The notes under the pieces are model-generated. The model was not told the origin of the DNA, did not search any database, and worked only from the letters and a program-made list of their open reading frames with translations. From Desulfobacterales bacterium (GTDB lineage: Bacteria; Desulfobacterota; Desulfobacteria; Desulfobacterales; SpSt-501): 41,402 nt of DNA. This document shows, piece after piece, positions 3,736 to 39,240 of the stretch. Each line of letters begins with the position of its first letter. Position 1 is the stretch's first letter. A program made the translations under genes and the position numbers. Location: contig JALOOU010000053.1 of the NCBI GenBank assembly GCA_025454255.1, positions 1 through 41,402 on the forward strand, read 5' to 3'.

Positions 3736-4131
3736 TCACCCTCTTTCCTTCACGTAAAGGATCCGCAAGTCGTAGAGGATGCTCTTGAGCATCGCCTCCT
3801 CGTCCGCGGTCAGGTTCCCGGCGGTCTTCTCCTGCAGCATGCTCAGCAAGTCGATGGTCTGTTTGGCCATGGGAAGGTTTTTCTCCGCCTTGCCGGAGAC
3901 CGGGTCCTCGATCACGCCCAGGTGGACCAGGGCCGAGGCGTTCAGCGAGGCCACGAAGGTGGGAAAATTGATCTGGGGCAGCGGCGGCTCATCCCGCCGG
4001 GGTTGGGGTTCGGCGTCTGGCGCGGCATCCTTTGCCGCCGGCTCGACGCGGTCGGCCTCATCCGGCTTGCCTTCGGGGGCGAAGCTGCGGCGATCCTTGA
4101 CCACGAATCCTTTTTCTTTCTCTTCGGACAT
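3736..4131 (-). CDS. DUF1844 domain protein
   Basis: A 131-residue soluble protein of unknown function. The first ~55 residues are charged and Pro/Ala-rich, so probably disordered. The C-terminal ~75 residues (from LPQINFPTFVASLNASALVH, through a helical segment NLPMAKQTIDLLSMLQEKT, to LYDLRILYVKERG) match the DUF1844 pattern common beside ispE in Desulfobacterota. The start at 4131 is chosen because GGAGG lies 6 bases upstream; an open frame extends 16 codons further without a good site. It lies 28 bases upstream of ispE and is likely in the same transcript. Confidence 0.8.
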   Translation of the reverse strand: MSEEKEKGFVVKDRRSFAPEGKPDEADRVEPAAKDAAPDAEPQPRRDEPPLPQINFPTFVASLNASALVHLGVIEDPVSGKAEKNLPMAKQTIDLLSMLQEKTAGNLTADEEAMLKSILYDLRILYVKERG

Positions 4132-4209
4132 GTCGCCTCCTGCGCAGGGGTGATGTTCCAATACGACGGCTGCGCGCAACCGGTCGTGCGAAACCGGCGC
4201 GAAACAGCT

Positions 4210-4659
4210 TTAATCGACCTTGCCGAACGCGTATTTGCTGATCAGGGCCTCGATGTCGAGCGCAGGTTCGGTCTCCACGATCAGGTCGCCGGGCTTCAGG
4301 AGAATGTCCGACCCCCCGGGGGAGAGCTGGATGAACTTATCCCCCAGCAGCCCGGCCGTCTTGACCGAAGCGATGGAGTCGTCCTGCAGCTGGATCCCCT
4401 CCCGGATCTTGAGGCGCACTATCGCCACCAGGTCCTTCGGATCCAGGGTGATGGCATCGACCTGGCCCACCTGGACGCCTGCGATCTCGACCTGGGCGCC
4501 GGGCCTGAGCCCGGTGACCGCCTTGAAGCGCGCGTGGAGAACATAGTGCTTGTCGCCCAGCACCTGCACCTCGCCCAGCCGCAGCGTGAGATAACCGATG
4601 CACAACACCCCGAGCAAGACGAAAATGCCGACCCCCAACTCGACGGACGACTGTTTCAT
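4210..4659 (-). CDS. mlaD: MlaD-like MCE-domain lipid-transport protein
   Basis: Periplasmic substrate-binding subunit of a phospholipid-transport ABC system, anchored by one N-terminal helix. It is 149 residues. The N-terminus MKQSSVELGVGIFVLLGVLC is the anchor. The MCE core follows at about residues 40-115, with GLRPGAQVEIAGVQVGQVDA and SVKTAGLLGDKFIQLSPGG, both typical of MlaD. Its ATG overlaps the stop of the ATPase gene in an ATGA (4656-4659), so translation is coupled, and GGGAGG precedes the start. No MlaC or MlaB gene follows. Confidence 0.93.
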   Translation of the reverse strand: MKQSSVELGVGIFVLLGVLCIGYLTLRLGEVQVLGDKHYVLHARFKAVTGLRPGAQVEIAGVQVGQVDAITLDPKDLVAIVRLKIREGIQLQDDSIASVKTAGLLGDKFIQLSPGGSDILLKPGDLIVETEPALDIEALISKYAFGKVD

Positions 4660-5876
4660 GAATCCTCCCGACTGATAAATAGCACCGTTTTGCTCTGATC
4701 CGCCTCGGAGATCAGCTCCGGCAAGCTGCTGTCGATTTTCGCCTGGGCGACCCCGGCGTTCACAGTGAAGCCGAACCCTTTGAACGTATCGCCGGTGGTC
4801 TGCGCGATGTGGCTGCGCAGGGTCCGCGCGAGCTTGCCGCAGAAATGCCGGGCCTGCGCCTCGCCGGTGTCCGGCAGCACCACTATGATCTTGTTGATGG
4901 CGTGGCGGAAGCAGGTGTCGGTGATGTAGGTGTTGTGGGTCACATGGCCGGCAAACGCCTTGAAAAGCGCCTGCCCGGCCATGTGGCCCACAATCCGGTC
5001 CGCGCCGTCCAGCGCCTCGACGGCCAACAGCACGATCGAAAAGGGGATGCGAAAGCGCTGCAATCGGCCCATCTCCTGCAGCAGCCGTGTCTGCCCGATG
5101 GCCGCAGAGTCGATCCCGGTCAGCTCGTCGCGCGGCGTCTCGAGCCCCTCGATGAAGTTGCGGACCTCCCGGCTGGAGGAGGACTGAACCTCGTCGGGGG
5201 TGCCTTCGATGAGGATGCGCCCCTCGTCGATCATGGCCACGCGCTGGGCGACGAAGAAGATCTCGGGGATCTCGTGGCTTACCACCACTCCGGTGAAGCC
5301 GAACCGCCGCTGGTAGTCGAGAATCATGCTGTGAACGGCGTTTTTGCGGATCGGGTCCAGCCCCGTGGTCGGCTCATCGAAGAGCACGATCTCCGGTTCG
5401 GTGACCAGGGCCCGGGCGAGCGCCACCCGCTTTTTCATGCCGCCTGACAACTGCGAGGGGTACTTGGTCTCCACATCGTGCAGGTCGAGCTGGGAGAGCT
5501 TGGCGCGCACCCGCTCGGCCACCTCCGCTTTCGACAGGACGTGCCGCTCGGTCAGCGGCAGGGCGATGTTTTCGAACACGTTCAGAAAATCGAACAGCGC
5601 GGTGTCCTGAAACACATAGGAGAACTTGCGCTTCACCGCACTGCGCTCGGCGGCGTCCATGGAAGAGCGCGGCTTGCCGTCGAAGAGGATCTCCCCGCCG
5701 TCGGGCTCGATCAGGCCGATGATGTGCTTGAGCAGCACGCTCTTGCCCGAGCCGCTCTTGCCGATGATGGCGGTGATCTGCCCCCGGTAGAGGCTCAGGG
5801 AGACCCCGTCGAGCACCCGCTGGACCCCCAGCGATTTCACGACATCTTGCAATTGGATCAAAGGTAGATCGGCCAT
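4656..5876 (-). CDS. mlaF: MlaF-type ABC ATPase fused to a degenerate GGDEF-like domain
   Basis: The N-terminal ~245 residues are the cytoplasmic ATPase of an MCE/Mla lipid transporter: Walker A GKSGSGKS (39-46), Q-loop FQ near 89-90, signature LSGGM (143-147), Walker B IVLFDEP (163-169) and switch His at 201. MlaF is normally ~260-270 residues; this one is 406. Residues about 265-402 show the layout of a diguanylate-cyclase fold: RFRIPFSIVLLAVEALDG, VGHMAGQALFKAF, then IIVVLPDTGEAQARHF, FTVNAGVAQ, and a final EADQSKTVLFISR where GGDEF proteins have AD..LY.AK. The GGDEF motif itself is replaced by about HAINK (325-329), so cyclase activity is unlikely. It overlaps mlaD by 4 bases. No clear ribosome-binding site precedes the ATG at 5876. 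Confidence 0.9.
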   Translation of the reverse strand: MADLPLIQLQDVVKSLGVQRVLDGVSLSLYRGQITAIIGKSGSGKSVLLKHIIGLIEPDGGEILFDGKPRSSMDAAERSAVKRKFSYVFQDTALFDFLNVFENIALPLTERHVLSKAEVAERVRAKLSQLDLHDVETKYPSQLSGGMKKRVALARALVTEPEIVLFDEPTTGLDPIRKNAVHSMILDYQRRFGFTGVVVSHEIPEIFFVAQRVAMIDEGRILIEGTPDEVQSSSSREVRNFIEGLETPRDELTGIDSAAIGQTRLLQEMGRLQRFRIPFSIVLLAVEALDGADRIVGHMAGQALFKAFAGHVTHNTYITDTCFRHAINKIIVVLPDTGEAQARHFCGKLARTLRSHIAQTTGDTFKGFGFTVNAGVAQAKIDSSLPELISEADQSKTVLFISREDS

Positions 5877-6105: not shown

Positions 6106-6906
6106 TCAGAGCAGAAAGGTGGTCAGCACGTAGTCGGTGACCAGGACCAGGACGCACGAGATGACGACCGCGCGCGTCGTGGACATGCTGACACCCTTGG
6201 CGCCGTACTCCGCGCGCGTGTGCGTGTAGTAGCCTTGAAAACAGCACACGGTGAGCACCACCATGGCAAAGACCAGGGACTTCGCGAACCCGCCCAGGAT
6301 GTCGCTCATCTCGACGCTCGATTGCGCGCGCGCGAAGTAAAACGTCGGGTTGAGGCCGAGCAGGACCGATCCCGACAGGTACCCGCCGTAGAGTCCGACG
6401 ACATCGAAGAGCGCCGTGAGCAGCGGAAAGCAGATGAGCGCCGCGGCGATGCGGGGGCTGATCAGAAACCGCATGGGGTTGATGTCCATGGTCTCCAGGG
6501 CGTCGATCTGCTCGGAAACCCGCATGATGCCGATCTCCGCCGCCATCGAGGAGCCCGCCCGGGCGATCACCATGATGGCGGTGAGCACCGGGCCCATCTC
6601 ACGCACCAGGGAGAGCGCCACGGCGGAGCCGAGCGCGGCGGTGGAACCGTACTTCACCAGCGCGTAATATCCCTGCAGGCCGAGCACCAGGCCGGTGAAG
6701 GCGGCGGTGAGGCAGATGACGAAGACGGACTTCATGCCGATGAAGTAGATCTGCTGCCGGATCTTATCGAACTGGAACGGCGGCTGGAAGATCAGCGCGA
6801 ACCCCTGCAGGAAGAACAGGAACATTCGGCCCAGCAGCCGGACAAAGTCCAGCACCTCCCGCCCCACGGCGGCGATCGGCGATCTCAGGGTGACAAGCGC
6901 GGCCAT
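6106..6906 (-). CDS. mlaE: MlaE-type permease of a lipid-transport ABC system
   Basis: Inner-membrane permease of the Mla/MCE phospholipid transporter, 266 residues. It starts with an amphipathic segment and has five to six hydrophobic helices. The family-defining stretch REMGPVLTAIMVIARAGSSM, continuing AAEIGIMRVSEQIDALETM, is intact. DPLxxL-type terminal elements are replaced by GLNPTFYFAR in the long loop. It is the first gene of an mlaE-mlaF-mlaD run on the minus strand, but is separated from mlaF by 229 bases, which is unusual for this normally tight operon. No strong ribosome-binding site precedes the ATG at 6906. It is divergent from the ABC-F gene, with ~200 bases between them. Confidence 0.94.
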   Translation of the reverse strand: MAALVTLRSPIAAVGREVLDFVRLLGRMFLFFLQGFALIFQPPFQFDKIRQQIYFIGMKSVFVICLTAAFTGLVLGLQGYYALVKYGSTAALGSAVALSLVREMGPVLTAIMVIARAGSSMAAEIGIMRVSEQIDALETMDINPMRFLISPRIAAALICFPLLTALFDVVGLYGGYLSGSVLLGLNPTFYFARAQSSVEMSDILGGFAKSLVFAMVVLTVCCFQGYYTHTRAEYGAKGVSMSTTRAVVISCVLVLVTDYVLTTFLL

Positions 6907-38311: not shown

Positions 38312-39070
38312 CTACTCGCCGATCAGTTTTTGCCGGTTTTGGATGAAGCCGTTGCGGATCGCGACGTACGGGTCCAGGGAGGCCCTTTTGATCGCCTCGT
38401 AGTCCCCGATCCGGAAGGTGGTGTCGTTGACGGCCTCGCCGCCGCGCAGAATCAGGGACTGTGCGAGGCTGGTGTACCAGAAGAGGGGATCCAAGAGGCG
38501 GTCGGGCAGCTTCCCCAAGGCGTCGCGGACCGTGGATGGGCCGAAGAAGGGCAGCGTCAGGAAAGCGCTGTCTTCCCAGCCCCACACGGCAAACGTCTGT
38601 CCCATGTCCTCGGGGCTGGCGTTGAGGCCGGGATAGGCGGCGGCCACATCGGCCATCCCCAGAAACCCCACGGTCGTGTTCAGGAAGAATGCGGCGAATT
38701 CGTTTCCGCCCTTTTCCCATTGGCCCTGGAGCAGGCAGTTCACGAAGCGCACCGGGAAGCGGATGTTGTTCAGCGCGTTACGGAATATCGTGCGGAACTC
38801 CCAGGGCACGACGGTCTTGACGCCCTTGGCGGCGGGCTCAAGCACGTAGAGCAGCAGAAAATCGTTGATGACGAACATGTCGCGGTTGAACGTCTCCAGC
38901 GGGTCCCTCACCGTCGCGCCGCGGCGGGAGTCGTCGTCCTCGTCGTCATCTTCGATCGCGGCGGCGGCGCCGGCCGCAGACGGCTCCGCGGAGAAGGCCG
39001 GCGGGACCGCCACAGGGCACACCCAGACGGCGATCAGCAAGATCACCGCCAGCGGAAGTCGACCATGCAT
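38312..39070 (-). CDS. mlaA: MlaA/VacJ-family outer-membrane lipid-asymmetry protein
   Basis: A 252-residue exported protein. The signal sequence MHGRLPLAVILLIAVWVCPV runs to about AFSA; there is no canonical lipobox, so it looks like a signal-peptidase I substrate rather than a lipoprotein as in E. coli. An acidic linker (EDDDEDDDS) follows. The MlaA core starts DPLETFNRDMFVINDFLLLY and includes NNIRFPVRFVNCLLQGQW, AFFLNTTVGFLGMADVA and LPFFGPSTVRDALG. MlaA removes phospholipid from the outer leaflet; the other Mla genes lie at 4210-6906. The ATG at 39070 has AAAGGGG ~10 bases upstream; the longer frame would run into the repeat element. Confidence 0.92.
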   Translation of the reverse strand: MHGRLPLAVILLIAVWVCPVAVPPAFSAEPSAAGAAAAIEDDDEDDDSRRGATVRDPLETFNRDMFVINDFLLLYVLEPAAKGVKTVVPWEFRTIFRNALNNIRFPVRFVNCLLQGQWEKGGNEFAAFFLNTTVGFLGMADVAAAYPGLNASPEDMGQTFAVWGWEDSAFLTLPFFGPSTVRDALGKLPDRLLDPLFWYTSLAQSLILRGGEAVNDTTFRIGDYEAIKRASLDPYVAIRNGFIQNRQKLIGE

Positions 39071-39100
39071 GAATCCGTTTCCCCTTTCGATTTCGTGTTG

Positions 39101-39240
39101 GTGCCCATCCCGAAATGGTGGACTTCGGTTCAGGCCAAGGCCGCAGCGATTTCGCAACCGCAGGCGTAGTCGGCCTACGCCGAGGATTGCGAAGCGAAAA
39201 CGCCGGCCTGGGCCGAAAGACGCCGTTTATGGATGGGCAC
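39101..39240. repeat. 140-bp fold-back repeat element
   Basis: GTGCCCATCC (39101-39110) and GGATGGGCAC (39231-39240) are exact inverted ends. Imperfect arms continue inward (TTCGG..CAGGCC versus GGCCTG..CCGAA). The core hairpin has TTCGCAA/TTGCGAA outer arms (39151-39157, 39187-39193) and GGCGTAG/CTACGCC inner arms around TCGGC. The left end of the element lies 30 bases from the mlaA ATG and the right end abuts the stop of the neighbouring gene. The core resembles that in the tandem array at 19865-20064. Confidence 0.8.

Follow-up and report, generated by a model that had tools for sequence, protein, structure and literature searches.

The window, by which we mean the whole stretch of 41,402 nucleotides analysed here (contig JALOOU010000053.1 of the Desulfobacterales bacterium assembly GCA_025454255.1), carries, on its minus strand, a short run of genes, mlaE-mlaF-mlaD, for a pump that moves lipids between inner and outer membrane. 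The genes and the parts of the encoded ATPase are as follows:

6106..6906, minus strand: mlaE permease, first gene of the run (PF02405, 2e-77)
4656..5876, minus strand: mlaF-GGDEF, 406 aa, middle gene of the mlaE-mlaF-mlaD run
5142..5876, minus strand: ABC ATPase domain, residues 1-245 (Pfam ABC_tran at residues 22-171, 1.5e-37)
4695..5132, minus strand: degenerate GGDEF domain, residues 249-394 (Pfam match)
4917..4928, minus strand: YITD, residues 317-320, at the place of the RxxD of the c-di-GMP inhibitory site
4887..4901, minus strand: AINKI, residues 326-330, aligned in place of GG(D/E)EF
4210..4659, minus strand: mlaD, short, 149 aa (PF02470, 1.5e-21; TIGR04430 above cut-off)
3736..4179, minus strand: DUF1844 gene after mlaD (PF08899, 1.7e-31)
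38312..39157, minus strand: mlaA lipoprotein gene, elsewhere in the window (PF04333, 3.7e-59)

A first-pass annotation, made from the letters alone, had read the open reading frame at 4656-5876 as an MlaF-type ATPase about 140 residues longer than MlaF. Both points held: the frame was found there on the minus strand, and its product exceeds the 269-residue E. coli MlaF chain (6xbd_I) by 137 residues. Both mlaE and mlaD adjoin the gene, and the ATG of mlaD overlaps the mlaF stop (ATGA). Walker A, the LSGGM signature, Walker B and H201 are invariant columns in an alignment of 78 rows. The signature is of the Mla type (S144, G145, G146 and M147, invariant in the same 78 rows), and PMC7367683 describes its Met as conserved in Mla/TGD systems. 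In the full-length AlphaFold2 model (78 rows; pLDDT 88.7, pTM 0.84) the ATPase part has E. coli MlaF as its best structural match, at 39% identity. The best-scoring NCBIfam model was NF008809, with 194.6 bits against an equivalog cut-off of 441. Judged from its sequence, the ATPase is MlaF-like and lies outside the NF008809 equivalog. The protein shares with E. coli MlaF (PDB 6xbd, 6xgy) the ABC domain, the LSGGM signature and the mlaE and mlaD partners. The difference lies at the C-terminus, where E. coli MlaF ends, as described in PMC7367683, in an extension of about 25 residues that winds around the partner subunit and contacts MlaB, whereas the window MlaF carries a GGDEF-fold domain of about 160 residues and has no adjacent mlaB.

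The annotation had suggested that this tail follows a diguanylate-cyclase fold and had proposed a profile search and a fold search as checks; both returned GGDEF. Residues 249-394 of the window protein matched Pfam GGDEF (PF00990) with 41.4 bits, above the gathering cut-off of 23.8 (E 1.6e-10). The tail alone matched PF00990 at E 3e-11 and NCBIfam TIGR00254 with 38.4 bits (cut-off 37.4). All 77 tails scanned, i.e. the window tail and 76 of 80 named relatives (L074, L076, L106 and L138 excluded), matched PF00990 at E<=0.01, the best at 7.6e-22. Searched against the PDB, the tail profile retrieved 48 distinct sequences at E<=0.001, most of them named diguanylate cyclases, GGDEF proteins or response regulators, with a diguanylate cyclase (3ign) as the best match (2.2e-21). 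A template-free AlphaFold2 model of the tail, built on an input alignment of the window tail and 76 relatives only, showed the helix and strand order of a GGDEF domain (pLDDT 88.3, pTM 0.86) rather than an unrelated fold. Moreover, the best 50 of the 92 Foldseek matches of this model in the PDB (E<=0.001) were GGDEF-domain proteins, with a best E of 2.2e-10 and TMq values of 0.66-0.78 among the matches listed. In fold and sequence profile, the tail thus resembles the GGDEF domains of canonical diguanylate cyclases (3ign, PleD, WspR, SiaD).

MlaF-GGDEF is a family that extends beyond the window gene. Each of the seven genomes of the window's genus (7/7) has two or three such genes. Within the order, matches at E<=1e-50 came from 103 of 146 genomes; in at least 63 of the 146, a match extended past query residue 350, a lower bound because 12 candidates per genome were scored. 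A pattern scan of 84,980 named species genomes returned 407 related stretches, of which the best 80 were kept. These best 80 of 407 are titled Desulfobacterales, Desulfobacteraceae, Desulfatibacillaceae, Syntrophobacterales, Desulfobacterota, Deltaproteobacteria or a like genus, and include one Olavius-associated delta symbiont and the cultured Desulfatibacillum alkenivorans DSM 16219. The tail is present in 80/80. The samples overlap, in that 25 of the 33 main-clade loci from the other sample represent a gene already counted among the named loci. In a phylum sample of 395 genomes, a full-span tail occurred in 19, eight inside the order and 11 outside it, and eight of these 11 belong to family f146. 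Full-span tails were counted at >=91 bits with a start at model position 1-2 and an end at >=159, because the tail profile also matches ordinary GGDEF proteins (up to 104 bits). In the titles and abstract openings of the open-licence literature, no description of an MlaF-GGDEF fusion was found.

The genes mlaE, mlaF-GGDEF and mlaD stand in this order in 69 of the 80 named loci. Among the other 11, the ATPase lies away from mlaE in six (L079, L080, L081, L084, L091, L094), three end at contig ends (L090, L106, L138) and two show no mlaD (L076, L123). In many named loci mlaD is followed by mlaC, and in L066-L075 by DUF1844; in the window and these close kin, the DUF1844 gene stands where many other operons have mlaC. 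Outside the order, the layout is mlaE-mlaF-mlaD-mlaC in 10 of the 11 cases; the eleventh, L164, has a separated layout and lies on the same contig as L091. The window's genome encodes a second mlaE-mlaF(GGDEF)-mlaD-mlaC operon on another contig (C158). On C72 it has a further, third MCE system, in which STAS is fused to MlaE and the ATPase is cut at its C-terminus by the contig end. The STAS_2-like domain at the MlaE N-terminus of this third system (L222:641-1819) scored 24.4 bits, below the cut-off of 29.2. Chance or a mis-read frame was rejected as the source of the tail, because ATPase and tail share a single frame in 80/80 kept named loci, two of which (L106 and L138) end at contig ends, and because the tail is under purifying selection.

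Residue-level comparison was based on 120 aligned tail rows. Removal of two rows cut by contig ends and of 14 near-identical rows (>98% identical, among the first 104 main-clade rows) left 104 distinct tails: 88 of the main clade, eight second copies and eight of family f146. We take the metal-ligand and guanine-contact roles of the aligned residues to be those of PleD-type cyclases. In contrast to canonical diguanylate cyclases, all 104 tails have lost GG(D/E)EF as well as the first Asp that binds metal and the Asp that contacts guanine, and these zero counts were the same before and after removal of near-identical rows. The guanine-contacting position, the role of which is described in PMC6456294, is Gln in 93 of the 104 (78/88 main clade, 7/8 second copies, 8/8 f146). 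An acidic residue (Asp or Glu) survives at the third motif position in 18/88 main-clade and 3/8 f146 tails, and Glu stands at the fourth in 8/8 second copies and 5/8 f146 tails. Typical forms are GLNKI or GMNKI in the main clade, TINEF in the second copies and, for example, GPEEI or GSGEI in f146; the three groups appear to represent different routes of decay from one motif. The annotation had placed roughly HAINK at the site of GGDEF. The replacement was borne out, while the exact residues shifted by one, as it is AINKI that aligns.

Sequence profile, predicted fold and residue-level loss therefore agree with the suggestion, already made at first pass, that an Mla ATPase has been fused to an inactive cyclase fold. 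The prospect that the tail retains nucleotide cyclase activity through an atypical active site is negligible: activity is reported for some cyclases in which a single motif residue differs (AGDEF, SGDEF; PMC3974145), and the base-contacting position, Gln in most tails, sets purine specificity in Hypr cyclases according to PMC6456294, but both acidic metal ligands occur together in 0/104 distinct tails, and AINKI of the window protein differs from GGDEF at all five positions. By these residues, the tail would fail as a diguanylate cyclase; it appears dead as a cyclase and retained for something else. Since the catalytic residues are lost, the domain probably steers the lipid pump instead of synthesising a signal molecule.

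In the main clade, the ex-catalytic hairpin has been rebuilt as G-[LM]-[ND]-K-[IL]. When the 169 tail columns were ranked by entropy in 70 main-clade tails (<80% identity), D320, C322 and R324 came 3rd, 5th and 8th, and N328 and K329 at the replaced motif positions came 24th and 28th. Tail dN/dS (Nei-Gojobori) was 0.04-0.46 in all 11 close pairs (maximum 0.456), which points to purifying selection on the tail. It exceeded the dN/dS of the ATPase domain in nine of the 11 pairs, in one of them barely. The excess was greatest in the window's own lineage, with 0.38 and 0.46 versus about 0.2 for the ATPase; the window and its nearest relative differed with a dN/dS of 0.38 in the tail and 0.20 in the ATPase domain. 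Recent decay of the tail was rejected, because no tail retains the GGDEF motif and the replacement motif is conserved.

Could the tail be a passive remnant, i.e. a fused domain kept for stability or folding, with no regulatory role and repeatedly lost? In a tail tree, 42 tails stood apart from the 10 reference GGDEFs with a support of 100/99; only these 10 references were used, nine of them from the window's genome, and L009 among them has no intact motif. This grouping favours a single fusion, although shared decay could help to produce it. On the best ATPase-domain tree of 94 rows, tail presence changes 10 times, of which well-supported branches force four. The tree was obtained by a quick method and is unrooted, and comprises 54 tailed rows (L047 and L168 being one gene) and 40 tail-less rows. 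One genus contains three tail-less members (L171-L173) and one tailed member (L206). Tail-less sister operons of the order keep mlaE-mlaF-mlaD and mostly mlaC as well. A tblastn search of 40 loci found no tail remnants after short mlaF genes, its only matches being the tailed L206 and one weak match (L180, 0.009). Our reading, on an unrooted ATPase tree, is one old gain followed by repeated loss. As the tail is absent from many sister MlaFs in like operons, it is not essential to the transporter type. The changes of tail presence, and the genus with both forms, speak for a passive remnant, but the purifying selection in 11/11 pairs, the conservation of a new motif where the active site used to be and the long retention after one apparent origin argue against it and make it very unlikely. 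In several tail-less mlaF matches (in G119, G051, G052, G126 and others), one or two in-frame stops were read through.

A second explanation concerns MlaB. E. coli MlaF requires MlaB to stay on MlaE, and its extension of about 25 residues docks on the MlaFB interface of the partner (PMC7367683). The annotation had seen no mlaB here and had proposed that the tail takes its place, naming an mlaB gene in the same genome, with a product interacting with this ATPase, as evidence to the contrary. Indeed, the window contig (C25) gave no STAS, STAS_2 or MlaB-model match; the 10 STAS, eight STAS_2 and four MlaB-model matches of the genome all lie on other contigs. The genome showed no bona fide mlaB, since the best MlaB-model score was 25.1 bits against a cut-off of 90, and has stand-alone STAS genes elsewhere. 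With the STAS profile, none of the tailed loci (80 named, 13 others) showed a STAS gene next to the operon on the same strand. A STAS frame lay nearby on the opposite strand in two of the 80 (L081, L094), a weak match at L115 (E 0.03) falls inside the MlaF frame itself, and the 13 further tailed loci gave no STAS match at all. This profile is of moderate sensitivity, as the STAS-MlaE fusions L207 (1.6e-5) and L167 (0.0022) matched weakly, and the C72 fusion was part of its training set.

As a substitute for MlaB, the tail would keep MlaF stably bound to MlaE and make a STAS subunit dispensable. This would fit the missing STAS neighbours, the start of the tail at about the start of the MlaB-contacting extension of E. 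coli MlaF (Asp245; PMC7367683) and the short ATPases of the two readable STAS-MlaE fusion systems (L167, L207). However, the same profile found no STAS gene in 25 tail-less loci of the order either (24 of the sister clade and L191); hence tail and STAS are not simple alternatives, and the proposed replacement is unsupported as stated. A strict swap is unsupported on the same grounds. Furthermore, the tail has a GGDEF fold by profile and model and not a STAS fold, and a stand-alone STAS gene elsewhere in the genome could act in trans. MlaB is described as sparsely distributed outside Proteobacteria, and Veillonella as having mlaEFD only, with a phenotype in mla mutants (PMC10665443). We regard the substitution as quite unlikely.

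A third explanation is that the tail is a c-di-GMP receptor, in which binding at the inhibitory site, as in PelD, links two tails and switches Mla transport with the c-di-GMP level. RxxD occurs at the exact inhibitory-site place in 51 of the 88 distinct main-clade tails (59 of 104 rows before removal of near-identical ones), and 43 of these 51 carry a basic residue (Lys in 33, Arg in 10) where the second inhibitory-site Arg would lie. In the cultured Desulfatibacillum alkenivorans (L114) the RxxD is RPND. The window's genome has 11 GGDEF matches, eight with an intact RxGG(D/E)EF, and thus encodes cyclases; the degenerate GGDEF domain of PelD binds c-di-GMP via RxxD and a second Arg, as described in PMC7112168. 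Against this stand the absence of RxxD from the 16 other tails (0/8 second copies, 0/8 f146), the position of the inhibitory-site Arg column at just 61st of 169 in conservation, and the small share of RxxD tails (10/51) with Arg rather than Lys at the second place. Moreover, the window protein has YITD, with Tyr for Arg, and Lys348. Because of this YITD and of the RxxD in part of the family, c-di-GMP binding appears a fair guess for that part and a poor one for the window protein. As an account of the tail it is unlikely.

We favour the reading that the tail is a captured, catalysis-stripped GGDEF domain that now serves as a C-terminal regulatory and dimerising domain of an Mla transporter, with a probability of about 0.6. 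It builds on the domain architecture, the homology, the predicted fold, the loss of catalytic and guanine-binding residues, the purifying selection and the fixed place between mlaE and mlaD. In an ancestor of these Desulfobacterota, mlaF would have captured a GGDEF domain, from which catalysis was then stripped. Each of the two MlaF subunits would carry one tail at the place of the E. coli C-terminal extension, and the two tails may meet under the nucleotide-binding domains, by analogy with the C-terminal domains of MetN and ModC. Their contact could stabilise the MlaF dimer and make its closure easier or harder. The rate of lipid transport would then be set by a ligand or a protein partner that binds to the rebuilt hairpin (D-x-C-x-R-x-G-x-[ND]-K) or to the domain interface. 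The full-length model is a monomer, and pairing of the tails in the complex lies outside what it shows. Against a regulatory role speak the sister MlaFs that do without the tail in otherwise like operons and the higher dN/dS of the tail than of the ATPase in 9/11 pairs.

Several known systems resemble this arrangement in part. The ammonium transporter chain of 8qj3 and 8qpf likewise includes a GGDEF-like stretch (profile match to chain residues 467-600, E 5e-14), but it is not an ABC ATPase, and its GGDEF domain is presumably an active cyclase. In MetN and ModC the ATPase likewise ends in a folded domain, which can gate association of the nucleotide-binding domains, and C-terminal domains of ABC ATPases are thought to regulate this association (PMC7367683); those of MetN and ModC, however, are ferredoxin-like or TOBE domains and not GGDEF. 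A MetN-like domain arrangement was rejected as a claim, as alignments to the full model (about 360 columns, rmsd 8-12) were too poor. PelD is similar in placing a dead GGDEF domain on an envelope machine, and part of the MlaF-GGDEF family has kept its RxxD. In contrast to the window tail, which has no RxxD Arg, PelD combines GAF with GGDEF and serves a polysaccharide machine (PMC7112168).

A bolder version of the regulatory reading places outer-membrane lipid transport in Desulfobacterota under direct control by a nucleotide second messenger: a cyclase domain was fused, synthesis was lost and a built-in sensor remained. This sensor might bind c-di-GMP in the RxxD members, and another nucleotide or a partner in members such as the window protein, with Gln for the guanine Asp and an x-x-N-K-I loop for the catalytic hairpin. 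We consider this version tentative and rather unlikely. According to PMC7367683, how Mla transport is switched on and off is still to be settled, and what MlaB does is poorly defined. The large family of natural MlaF proteins whose ATPase bears a signalling-derived domain can be compared directly with tail-less sisters in the same order. If a nucleotide does act through the tail, one protein chain would couple lipid traffic to second-messenger signalling.

Other signalling and lipid-transport genes were seen near MlaF-GGDEF or elsewhere in the genome. In the six named loci with MlaF-GGDEF away from mlaE, the next gene encodes an RsbW/SpoIIAB-like kinase (L079:4677-5087, L080:4935-5384, L084:4661-5068, L094:4677-5087, L081:2012-2434 and L091:4663-5085). 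Pfam HATPase_c_2 was matched in 4/4 of those tested, and all six were recognised by a profile of those four. Together with the STAS neighbours, these kinases hint at partner switching and STAS phosphorylation near MlaF-GGDEF. At L084:3-3423, the orphan MlaF-GGDEF gene is directly preceded by two genes that look PqiA-like and by those for an MCE protein, which has three MlaD-type stretches, and an ABC_trans_aux lipoprotein. Contig C68 of the window's genome (G000; L216:421-7501, L223) carries a response regulator (by look), HD_5 (HD-GYP-like)+DUF3313, STAS and hydrolase-like genes, followed in the same cluster by MlaA, PqiA, a second PqiA-like gene and an MCE gene (PqiB-like, by look). Hence, this contig has a STAS gene and a possible c-di-GMP phosphodiesterase beside lipid-transport genes.
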